From Planctomycetia bacterium TMED53 (GTDB lineage: Bacteria > Planctomycetota > UBA8108 > UBA1146), in NCBI GenBank assembly GCA_002167285.1, contig NHDG01000063.1:1-45309 (forward strand): a DNA stretch of 45,309 bases. Reading direction: 5' to 3'. Below are positions 4,948 through 30,492 of the stretch, in pieces. The notes beneath the pieces were generated by a model. It saw nothing but the letters and a program-made list of their open reading frames with translations. It ran no database searches and was not told the origin of the DNA. Each line of letters opens with the position of its first letter. Position 1 is the first letter of the stretch. Both the position numbers and the translations under genes were made by a program.

Positions 4948-6705
4948 ATGTACAGAGGATTCATATCCATGCCAGCATGGCTGATCTTATTGAGCCTGTT
5001 GCCAGGATTTTTCCTTTTTAATCCGGTAGCCGCCCAATCTCCGCAGCCAAAAGCGGGGGATCCACTGCCATTTTTGAACAGTGCACAATTGGAGCGGTTC
5101 GAGTTGGGCAAGGTACAATTCCTTCGTACCTTTAGCGAAGCGGAAGGGCTTGGACCAGGATTCAATCAGGATTCCTGTGCTTCGTGCCACGCCCTGCCCA
5201 TTGGTGGAACCAGCCCGATCACCGTGACTCGATTCGGAGCCGCCGATAAGGGAGCGCCGTTTGATCCTCTCGATGCTGAAGGTGGCTCATTGCTGCAGGC
5301 AAATTCCATCGCTCCTGAGTGCCTGGAAATCGTTCCTGCGAACGCGACGATCATCGCAGATCGAATCACTCCTTCAATTCTTGGAGCGGGCTTAGTTGAA
5401 GCCATCGATGGCTCGGTCATCGTGGCGAATCAATCCAATGGAGGGACTGTTCATTGGGTGCCTATCCTTGAAGACCCCACTGCTCCCCTTGCGGTCGGCC
5501 GCTTTGGTTGGAAATCACAATTGGCAACACTGATGTCTTTCAGTGGTGACGCCACGCTGATGGAGATGGGAATCACAAATAGCGTCCTCCAAGTGGAAAA
5601 TGCTCCTAACGGAGACACTTCGTTGATTCCCATATGCGATTCGGTGACGGATCCGGAAGAGCCCGTCGATAATGGAGTCCCCTACCTTGAACGAATTACG
5701 GACTTCCAGAAATTCCTGGCTCCTCCACCACAAACTCCCAAGAGTGGAATGTCTGGTGAGGCGATTTTCACGAGTATCGGCTGCGCGGATTGCCATCGTC
5801 CGGAGTACACCACTGGAACCAGTCCAGAACCGGGAATGTCCGGAGTCACATTCCGCCCCTACAGTGATTTTCTTCTCCACGACATGGGAGCCTTGGGAGA
5901 TGGAATCGCCCAAGGAGATGCTCTCGAAACTGAAATGAAAACACCTCCTCTTTGGGGATTACGCATTAGAGGACAGTTCCTTCACGATGGTCGTGTACTA
6001 GTTCAAGACCTCTATCAGGGGGTCAACGATGCCGTCGGTTGGCACTTCGGTGACGCACTTCCATCATCCCAAGCATGGAACAATCTTGATAAGAGTGAAC
6101 AAGATAAGGTGGTCGCTTTCCTCAACTCATTGGGACGCTCTGAGTACGACACCGATGGGAACAGCTTCATCGACGAAGCAGATCTACAAGGCTTCATCAA
6201 TTGCTGGACCGGAGATGCTCCTGGGTCGTTTAACGCGGATTCTCCGTGTGCTTTACATGACCTCGATCAAGATGGAGATGTCGATGCCACCGATTTGGCA
6301 GGCCTCCAACAAGCCTATGAAGGAACCGTTGTCGATTGCGACCTGGATGGAACTTGGGATTTGATCCAAATATTGACCCTCAATGGTGATACCAACAGCA
6401 ACGGTATTCTTGATGCTTGCGAAGATCCGTTCTTCCGCAGGGGAGATGTCAATTTGGACGGAACCGTCGATATCGGCGACGCGGTTTCTTTACTCTCCTC
6501 CCTCTTTGGTGGTGCTGGATTGCCAGAGTGCCTAGATGGAAGCGATTCTAACGACGACGGAGCCATCGATATCGGTGACGCCGTATTCGTATTGTCGTTC
6601 CTGTTTTCTTCAGGTACCGATATGCCTGCACCAGGAATTACGATCTGCGGCCAAGACCCGACGGCAGATGGCCTCGATTGTTCAGCTGCCAACAGCTGCC
6701 CATAA
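4948..6705 (+). CDS. Secreted di-heme oxidoreductase (DUF1111 / thiol-oxidoreductase-like) with C-terminal dockerin-like modules
   Basis: Signal peptide; two CxxCH heme sites (CASCH, CADCH); 'LHDMGALGDGIAQGDALETEMKTPPLWGLRIRGQFLHDGR' typical of the DUF1111 family; C-terminal RGDVNLDG module. Confidence 0.85.
   Translation: MYRGFISMPAWLILLSLLPGFFLFNPVAAQSPQPKAGDPLPFLNSAQLERFELGKVQFLRTFSEAEGLGPGFNQDSCASCHALPIGGTSPITVTRFGAADKGAPFDPLDAEGGSLLQANSIAPECLEIVPANATIIADRITPSILGAGLVEAIDGSVIVANQSNGGTVHWVPILEDPTAPLAVGRFGWKSQLATLMSFSGDATLMEMGITNSVLQVENAPNGDTSLIPICDSVTDPEEPVDNGVPYLERITDFQKFLAPPPQTPKSGMSGEAIFTSIGCADCHRPEYTTGTSPEPGMSGVTFRPYSDFLLHDMGALGDGIAQGDALETEMKTPPLWGLRIRGQFLHDGRVLVQDLYQGVNDAVGWHFGDALPSSQAWNNLDKSEQDKVVAFLNSLGRSEYDTDGNSFIDEADLQGFINCWTGDAPGSFNADSPCALHDLDQDGDVDATDLAGLQQAYEGTVVDCDLDGTWDLIQILTLNGDTNSNGILDACEDPFFRRGDVNLDGTVDIGDAVSLLSSLFGGAGLPECLDGSDSNDDGAIDIGDAVFVLSFLFSSGTDMPAPGITICGQDPTADGLDCSAANSCP
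6433..6702 (+). other. Dockerin-like Cys module, copy B
   Basis: FRRGDVNLDGTVDIGD...ECLDGSDSNDDGAIDIGD...ICGQDPTADGLDCSAANSCP. Confidence 0.75.
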
Positions 6706-28339: not shown

Positions 28340-28453
28340 TCGAAACGATCAGTTTGAGTCCGAAACTTAAAACCGTGATGTCACTTCTCTTCAGAATGGA
28401 GTTCGCGGATAACCTTGCACCTGCAAAGAGACCTTTAAGCCGTCAAAAGCCAG

Positions 28454-29080
28454 TTGCTCGATATGGGCGGTCTGGTGGAAAAAGTCTCCAACCAGGCGAT
28501 CACCGCACTTCAGGAGAGAGATACAGAACTTTCTGCCGGTGTCCATGAACTGGACCTCACCATTGATCAGCAGGAAGTGAAGATCGAAGAAGAGTGCCTG
28601 AAGATTCTCGCCCTGCACCAGCCCGTGGCCACGGATCTTCGCTTTGTGGTTTGTATCATGAAGGTCAACAACGATCTGGAGCGAATGGGCTCTCTCGCCA
28701 TCAACATCGCCGAGAGAGCCAGTTACCTCTCCAGCCATGAACCTCTGGGGGTCCCCCTCGATTTCCATCGCATGGCAGAGCTGGCCCTTGAAATGGTCAA
28801 GGAAAGCCTCAGCGCACTTTTGAACCTGGATACGGATTTGGCTCGAAAAGTACTCGCAAAGGACGACGAGGTTGATGAGATCAATCGTCAGATGTTTGAG
28901 ATCCTGGAAGAGATCATGCTGAAAGATCCGACGACGATCCGTCGGGCCATCCACCTGCTCTCTGCTTCAAGGCACCTGGAACGCATCGCAGATCTGGCGA
29001 CAAATATCGCTGAGGATGTGGTTTTCTTGGTCGAAGGTGAAGTGATCCGCCATTTACCCGAGGATTACAATCGAACCTGA
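28454..29080 (+). CDS. phoU: Phosphate transport regulator PhoU (N-terminus disrupted by upstream in-frame TAA; TTG start as given)
   Basis: LLDMGGLVEKVSNQAITALQERDTELSAGVHELDLTIDQQEVKIEEECLKILALHQPVATDLRFVVCIMKVNNDLERMGSLAINIAERA; last gene of the pst operon. Confidence 0.85.
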   Translation: MLDMGGLVEKVSNQAITALQERDTELSAGVHELDLTIDQQEVKIEEECLKILALHQPVATDLRFVVCIMKVNNDLERMGSLAINIAERASYLSSHEPLGVPLDFHRMAELALEMVKESLSALLNLDTDLARKVLAKDDEVDEINRQMFEILEEIMLKDPTTIRRAIHLLSASRHLERIADLATNIAEDVVFLVEGEVIRHLPEDYNRT

Positions 29081-29101: not shown

Positions 29102-30379
29102 TTACTTCGAACTCGTTTGCCGATACAACCAAACCCAACCATGGGTGTTTGATTTTTCTCGGTCAAACTCACCCATCTTCTTTGCTAGAGGCCGCCAAAC
29201 TTCGAGGACTTTCTCGATACGCTCTTCAACCTCTTTAGGGATTCCGCCCTCTTTTCCTACGTAGGAGTTGCGTACTTCGTAGGCGGCATCCAACTCTTCT
29301 GTGGCCTTCGTGTACTCTGGTAATATCTTTGCTTTCTCAGCTTCCTGCTCTGGTGTCAGAGGAGGCAGCGTGTAATACAACCACTGCACATCGCCCACTA
29401 AGAGGTCATTGAATCCATCGCCGTCGTAATCGGTGACAAAGACCTTGGTCCTTGAGCCAGCCCCCTCTGGCCCGTCCTCTTCTTTTCGCTGTTTAAATTC
29501 GGATTTCTCGATCAGGACTTGGCGATCACCATATCGGGGCTGTTCCGTTGACCCAATGTTCGGATACCAGTGAACACCTCCATATTCACTGCCCAAAACC
29601 AGATCGAGAGTACCGTTGCCATCCCAATCAGCCATATGCGCATTGCTACCTTTGACAGCAGCGCCAGCCTCTGTTTTTAAAGGGCGAGAATCACCTGCAT
29701 ATTCTGGGGAATTTCTGGTACCGATGTTTTCAAAAATTTCGACCGCCGAGGAACGAGTCCCAAGAATCAAATCGAGATCTCCGTCCTGATCCATATCCCA
29801 CGCCTCAACAGTGATGGAATATGATTTAGACTTGAGATCTTCGCCCTTTTTGTCTTTTAACCTGCGGCCTTGTAGATAACTTTGAGCTCCATTGCATTCA
29901 AAGAAATAGATCTCACCGGTATAAGAACCACTCAGAATATCAAGATCACCATCTGCGTCGTAATCCACAAACTGTGGAGAAAAGCTGATACATCACGTGG
30001 AAGGAATGGAAGCGAATTCCTCACCGGCCTTGAGGTATTCGAATCCTCGGTATTCAGGTGAAAATTTGGATCCATAATTTTTGTAGATCCTCAATCGCCC
30101 TTGGGCGTATCCACTGTCTCCTTCAGATTTACGATACTTGGCCGGAAGGCGATCCCCAGGAAAGGACTCCTTGCCAAACTCTCCGACCAGAAGATCCTTG
30201 AGACCGTCACCATCAAAATCATGAAGATACGGAGCGGCATGTCCAACGAGGACATCGATGGGCTCACCGGAAGAAATAATCCTTACTGGAGAAGCGAACT
30301 GACTCGTTAATTCCTCCAAGGGCTCTATAGACTCACCTGCTCCAGATAACAGCAGAACTACCAGGGTGATATTTACCAT
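29102..30379 (-). CDS. VCBS/FG-GAP repeat protein with in-frame TGA at 29993-29995; candidate selenoprotein or disrupted gene
   Basis: ORFs 30460..29993 and 29968..29102 are in the same frame: ...KAGEEFASIPST-[TGA]-CISFSPQFVDYDADGDLDILSGSYTGEIYFF... Both sides carry VCBS motifs. Start set to MVNITLVVLLLSGAGES (30379), preceded by a purine-rich RBS. Confidence 0.7.
29964..29995 (-). promoter_or_regulatory. Candidate bacterial SECIS element following the in-frame TGA
   Basis: Minus strand UGA-UGUAUCAGCUUUUC-[UCCAC]-AGUUU-[GUGGA]: 5-bp perfect stem (29978-29974 / 29968-29964), loop AGUUU with G at loop position 2, 20 nt between UGA and that G. Confidence 0.5.
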
Positions 30380-30492
30380 TGGGCTTCCCTTTCCACCTTC
30401 CACCACTCGACGGCATCGGCCAGCTGCAGTGGAGAGAACGTCTCCAAGGCCAAAATACACCCGGGTATGAGGTCTGTGAAAAGAAATTAGAA

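Follow-up and report, generated by a model that had tools for sequence, protein, structure and literature searches.

Bacterial selenoproteins decoded by SelA, SelB, SelC and SelD, among them FdhA, SelD and the Sec-containing peroxiredoxins, combine an in-frame UGA with a downstream bacterial SECIS (bSECIS) hairpin, have Cys homologues and co-occur with sel genes. The gene described here shares all of these traits, including a G at loop position 2 and a spacing of 19 nucleotides. Unlike those selenoproteins, however, it belongs to a family that is predicted to adopt an FG-GAP beta-propeller, carries a vicinal U-C motif and has a Sec form that is commoner than the Cys form. FG-GAP/VCBS proteins (PF13517 and PF01839; integrin-alpha-type propellers, CRTAC1 and the fungal lectin PVL) resemble the family in their repeats and Ca-loop motifs, and profile matches of the family to CRTAC1 and integrin alpha were obtained. 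In contrast to them, the family possesses a conserved Sec-Cys pair and a C-terminal helical hairpin, and its structural similarity to solved propellers is low. Periplasmic relays built from the DsbD N-terminal domain and TlpA/redoxin proteins are a further point of comparison. In seven loci such domains share a polypeptide with the Sec propeller, whereas the protein studied here contains neither and does not have a thioredoxin fold. Vicinal chalcogen centres are known from mammalian TrxR (Cys-Sec), methanol dehydrogenase (Cys103-Cys104) and MerA (Cys-Cys). The adjacency of the two residues is alike, but here the order is Sec-Cys and the pair is placed in an FG-GAP propeller loop; no sequence relationship to these enzymes is expected.

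The window, by which we mean the whole stretch of DNA analysed (45,309 nucleotides), is contig C92 of an assembly of 2.98 Mb that is 83% complete (Planctomycetia bacterium TMED53, GCA_002167285.1). An earlier note had pointed out two minus-strand open reading frames, 30460..29993 and 29968..29102, lying in a common frame and separated only by a TGA (29995..29993) plus 8 codons. Its text and coordinates held, as did its read-through product, ...GEEFASIPST-U-CISFSPQFVDYDADGDLDILSGSY..., and the TGA is the sole interruption of the frame. The hairpin that it had described, UCCAC (29978-29974), AGUUU and GUGGA (29968-29964) with a G at loop position 2, was also confirmed, with the distance from the UGA to the loop measured as 19 nucleotides. 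By contrast, the start that it had implied, GTG 30460, was corrected. ATG 30379 is likely to be the true start because both the signal-peptide-like N-terminus and the onset of homology fall there (sequence and alignment). The features of the locus are as follows.

29102..30379, minus strand: coding sequence, very likely of a selenoprotein, 425 amino acids, with a signal peptide-like N-terminus, a predicted FG-GAP/VCBS beta-propeller bearing Sec129-Cys130 and a C-terminal helical hairpin (translation, Pfam, homologues in 54 genera, AF2)
30384..30390, minus strand: weak Shine-Dalgarno-like AGGGAAG just 5' of ATG 30379 (sequence)
30320..30379, minus strand: probable signal peptide (MVNITLVVLLLSGAG...), judged by eye; clearer Sec-type signals occur in relatives, e.g. 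L036, L030 and L037
29993..29995, minus strand: in-frame UGA, very likely selenocysteine 129 (TGA in 99 distinct loci, Cys in 7, other residues in 0)
29990..29992, minus strand: invariant Cys130, vicinal partner of residue 129 (invariance in alignments A1 and A3)
29964..29978, minus strand: bacterial SECIS hairpin UCCAC-AGUUU-GUGGA, within the coding sequence (codons S-PQFVD; family conservation and covariation)
29171..29353, minus strand: C-terminal helical hairpin (residues 343-371 and 382-403) followed by an HGWVWLY strand (AF2 model secondary structure)
29104..29102, minus strand: stop codon TAA
30493..30569, minus strand: tRNA-Arg(UCU) immediately upstream (ARAGORN and Rfam)

A tRNA-Arg also lies upstream of the family gene in relatives of the same genus and the same family (tRNA sequence in frame, L019-L028). 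An Rfam match to Plastid-ycf2 was discarded as the antisense of the tRNA, scoring under its gathering score. Just downstream of the gene, at 28391-29080, there is a PhoU-like gene.

The machinery for Sec insertion was examined in the source genome. All four genes that the earlier note had proposed to look for were found: selA (525.7 bits; cut-off 267.9), selB (360 bits), selD (350 bits) and selC, a tRNA-Sec with anticodon TCA (UCA). The selC, selD and selA genes form a cluster within 3 kb (G000 contig C8, 19228-21927; L001, L009 and L017), and selB is located apart from it on contig C96. SelD of this genome is itself Sec-containing, with a UGA in CAGUAAKLSPGD. On the sequence evidence, the standard bacterial route (SelA, SelB, SelC and SelD) very likely decodes the UGA as Sec under the direction of the in-frame hairpin at 29978-29964. 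In a MAG of the same genus, a selA match (G002:C70:13854-15215) contains one internal TGA and one TAA, reflecting assembly error or decay.

Homologues were collected by a protein search over 59 relatives followed by a profile search over 392 Planctomycetota genomes, and about 100 loci were then scanned by an HMM whose UGA column had been masked. A TGA at the homologous codon was found in 92 of the 392 genomes, at 99 distinct loci spread over 33 families and 54 genera, in homologues with identities down to 25-30%. The codon in these genomes is always TGA, never TAA or TAG, and the downstream half remains intact. Among family members, the only other residue aligned to it is Cys, in 7 genomes. 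The earlier note had asked for homologues at this site and had suggested that planctomycete relatives carry a Cys pair; these do exist (L083-L089), with 'CCVG' in six genomes of genus g58 and 'CCIG' in G206. Nearly all TGA forms carry the motif U-C-[IVT]-x-x-x-[PSL]-Q, and G386, G052, G041, G178 and G204 each hold three to four paralogues of the TGA form. As the sequences show, the family is found widely across Planctomycetota and nearly always bears Sec. A distinct subtype, GVWUCTSSTPQ, makes up its own clade (12 rows). The sole match outside the planctomycetes, L052, was rejected because it is an ordinary FG-GAP protein that lacks the motif.

The distribution of the two forms was compared with that of selA. 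This gene was found in 89 of the 92 genomes with the TGA form; the three that lack it are MAGs that are 77-82% complete. It is missing from six of the seven Cys-form genomes, namely the six of g58, all of them 99-100% complete; the seventh, G206, combines the Cys form with selA. Fisher tests, uncorrected for phylogeny, gave p = 5e-7 for selA in TGA versus Cys forms and p = 1.5e-18 for the TGA form versus selA over all genomes. On the tree, the Cys forms require two changes and are placed inside or beside Sec clades. Because of this nesting, and because the Cys forms have lost the SECIS, a conversion from Sec to Cys is possible; it is suggested by these data and not proved.

Next, we asked how far the hairpin supports decoding as Sec. 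The bSECIS model specifies an apical loop of 3-9 nucleotides, a stem of 4-16 bp, a G in the first two loop positions, a distance of 16-37 nucleotides from the UGA and an MFE of -7.5 kcal/mol or lower (PMC13188914). The window hairpin, with its 5-bp stem, 5-nucleotide loop, G at loop position 2 and apical loop 19 nucleotides after the UGA, meets the geometry in each respect. Its energy is short of the cut-off, as the 31-nucleotide piece alone has an MFE of -6.5 kcal/mol (ensemble -7.2). Moreover, 12 of 200 shuffles fold equally well, and another fold is preferred in a 48-nucleotide piece around it. The hairpins of the family have a mean MFE of -10.0 over 28 nucleotides. The hairpin that the earlier note had put forward is thus weak when taken alone, and it gains significance only because it is conserved across the family, not by its own folding energy.

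That conservation was evaluated with the T of the UGA numbered 1, which puts the stem at 18-22/28-32. The 5-bp stem is fully paired in 77 of 84 distinct sequences, compared with 1.9 ± 1.3 expected and a maximum of 6 in 500 resamplings of synonymous codons by each gene's own usage. The middle pair exchanges between AU and GC (58:0:6:20, p = 2e-14), with the Pro codon mostly CCA opposite GUG and CCG opposite GCG, a compensatory change (CCA..GUG to CCG..GCG and back). Apart from the middle pair, two pairs are replaced on both sides, in L068 (CUG..GCA) and L032 (UCG..AUG), with UA occurring at two pairs. Covariation exceeded that of 500 out of 500 shuffles and of all slid structures. When the middle pair was tested on a tree built without the hairpin columns, 5 of 7 well-supported independent pairs changed in the same direction and none in the opposite one, although with so few pairs the p value was 0.06. 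Finally, the stem is broken in seven of seven Cys forms. Conservation, compensatory changes and loss in the Cys forms together show, on evolutionary evidence, that the hairpin is a conserved bacterial SECIS.

Taken with the residues at the site, these results support the earlier reading of the UGA as Sec next to Cys, and every check named in that note that could be run favoured it. It is very likely that the UGA at 29995..29993 encodes Sec and that the gene is a selenoprotein gene, an inference drawn from sequence without mass spectrometry or 75Se data. Beyond what had been noted before, the analysis shows that the family is phylum-wide, mostly Sec-containing and in places fused to thiol-redox domains.

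For the protein itself, FG-GAP was the only kind of Pfam match above cut-off (FG-GAP_3, PF13517: 4.4e-19, 69.3 bits versus a gathering score of 26.9). Neither a Trx-like nor a DsbD_N domain was found above the Pfam cut-off in the window protein; they are found only as fusions in relatives. An AlphaFold2 model based on 70 alignment rows (mean pLDDT 93.6, pTM 0.89) consists of beta-strands in repeated units plus the C-terminal helical hairpin, and a Foldseek comparison with solved structures returned generic propellers at low TM (about 0.3-0.45). The fold is thus confidently predicted, by model, to be an FG-GAP beta-propeller with Ca2+-type DxDxDG loops. Names of TcdB and Tc toxins in the Pfam and Foldseek output were dismissed, as they reflect shared repeats and no toxin. 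Among Cys-type residues, invariance is confined to U129 and C130; C162, the third Cys of the window protein, is not conserved. We infer that Sec129-Cys130 sits on a loop entering one blade; whether it is exposed or in a pocket is unresolved, as no coordinates were inspected. Export of the protein is inferred from sequence, the N-termini being signal peptide-like by eye.

Fusions provide the only strong link to function. A DsbD_N domain follows the propeller in the same polypeptide in six loci (L037, L067, L069, L070, L073 and L104). One of them, L069 (511-2817, minus strand, G213), is a single read-through frame joining FG-GAP with UC, DsbD_N and an AhpC-TSA peroxiredoxin, the last carrying a further in-frame TGA where its peroxidatic residue lies (ASTPGUTA), giving a three-domain, double-Sec protein. 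A second double-Sec protein is encoded in L042 (61-2271, plus strand, G035), where an N-terminal TlpA/redoxin domain with UGPC (TGA) is fused to a UCIGMSPQ propeller. In addition, a DsbD_N-like gene (YQACDE..CL) lies directly 3' of six g58 Cys-form genes (L084-L089) on the same strand, in genomes that lack selA. L084 and L088 also have thioredoxin-like genes near the Cys-form gene. In our proposal, Sec129-Cys130 would be the redox centre of a periplasmic oxidoreductase, cycling between selenol/thiol and selenenylsulfide (or selenenic acid), with reducing equivalents supplied by a DsbD-type or TlpA-like relay. Such a relay is proposed because relatives fuse DsbD_N, TlpA/redoxin or peroxiredoxin domains. 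On balance we lean, by inference, toward a thiol/selenol redox protein that is exported and takes part in a Dsb/TlpA-type relay; its substrate (peroxide, protein disulfide or other) is unassigned. Against a redox role, most members are unfused, no conserved operon was found by neighbour clustering and Pfam scans, and FG-GAP propellers are usually binding scaffolds.

Several other explanations have to be weighed. A nonsense mutation (pseudogene), which the earlier note had kept as its alternative, or a sequencing or assembly error at 29993-29995, would be the default explanation for a stop in a lone MAG. It is all but excluded by the same TGA in 92 genomes, never replaced by TAA or TAG and followed by an intact downstream half, and a simple nonsense mutation is untenable for a codon kept in 54 genera. 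The UGA might instead be a leaky stop or the boundary of two cistrons, with re-initiation at GTG 29968 or low-level read-through with Trp or another residue. Although a GTG does sit 8 codons past the UGA in the window, re-initiation fails because this start codon is not kept, the equivalent being GCG or GCA in 20 of the 84 distinct sequences, and because the intervening residues rank with the best-conserved ones of the gene (Cys130 is invariant and PQ nearly so). Furthermore, ten forms lack any ATG, GTG or TTG within 14 codons. Read-through with Trp is contradicted by the aligned residue elsewhere, which is Cys and never Trp. We consider this reading very unlikely, and decoding as Sec remains the preferred one.

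The role of the pair is less settled than its identity. The vicinal Sec-Cys could be a soft-metal or metalloid ligand (Cu+, Hg2+ or As) serving binding or detoxification and not the centre of a redox relay. In MerA, Hg is bound by vicinal Cys pairs; among catalogued selenoproteins, several in which C and U are adjacent have a link to mercury or metals (PMC13188914); and a heavy-metal P-type ATPase (HMA plus E1-E2) lies on the same strand near the family gene in L153, L160 and L103, a weak hint. However, this ATPase is nearby in only 3 of about 100 loci, two of which are close relatives, and the recurrent fusions are to thiol-disulfide or peroxide domains, so that a metal ligand appears unlikely. 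Also unlikely, in our judgement, is Sec as a stand-alone catalytic residue, for example of a peroxidase or reductase acting on a small molecule in the propeller funnel, where the fused domains would be no more than its reductant. Sec is usually catalytic, and L069 joins the propeller to a peroxiredoxin and DsbD_N, but Cys130 is as invariant as Sec129, favouring a paired centre, and evidence for a pocket or substrate is absent. Returning to the redox relay, a bolder version would make the family a class of exported oxidoreductases, phylum-wide and primarily Sec-containing, that use a beta-propeller in place of a thioredoxin fold and whose vicinal Sec-Cys selenenylsulfide is supplied by a relay of the DsbD/TlpA type; we see as much reason to doubt this version as to accept it.

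The family is likely to be uncatalogued, which is probable rather than proved because only open-licence literature was covered. No FG-GAP/VCBS entry is present among the 119 prokaryotic selenoprotein families and subfamilies of a 2026 catalogue (PMC13188914), nor is there such a member in a 2022 selenoprotein list. Open-licence full texts yielded nothing relevant that links selenoproteins to VCBS or selenocysteine to FG-GAP. The window protein had no NCBIfam match at E<=10, and 70 family members had only partial matches, to non-selenoprotein models. Selenoproteins had been predicted in two genomes of Porphyra planctomycetes in a 2016 paper (PMC4807772). The family is present in about a quarter of the sampled Planctomycetota genomes and is probably mis-annotated there as truncated FG-GAP proteins. 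It places Sec on a fold for which the 2026 catalogue records none. It also exposes a blind spot: homology filters requiring Cys homologues, a limit stated by the authors of deep-Sep (PMC12013277), would tend to drop families that mostly carry Sec. The vicinal Sec-Cys and the natural DsbD_N, TlpA and peroxiredoxin fusions make function directly testable, and the compensatory changes in the SECIS constitute a natural mutant series for SelB recognition.

As a separate observation, a TlpA-like UGPC selenoprotein candidate (FLEFWATWUGPCRS) adjoins an unfused family member in L135, at about 5370-5710 on the plus strand.
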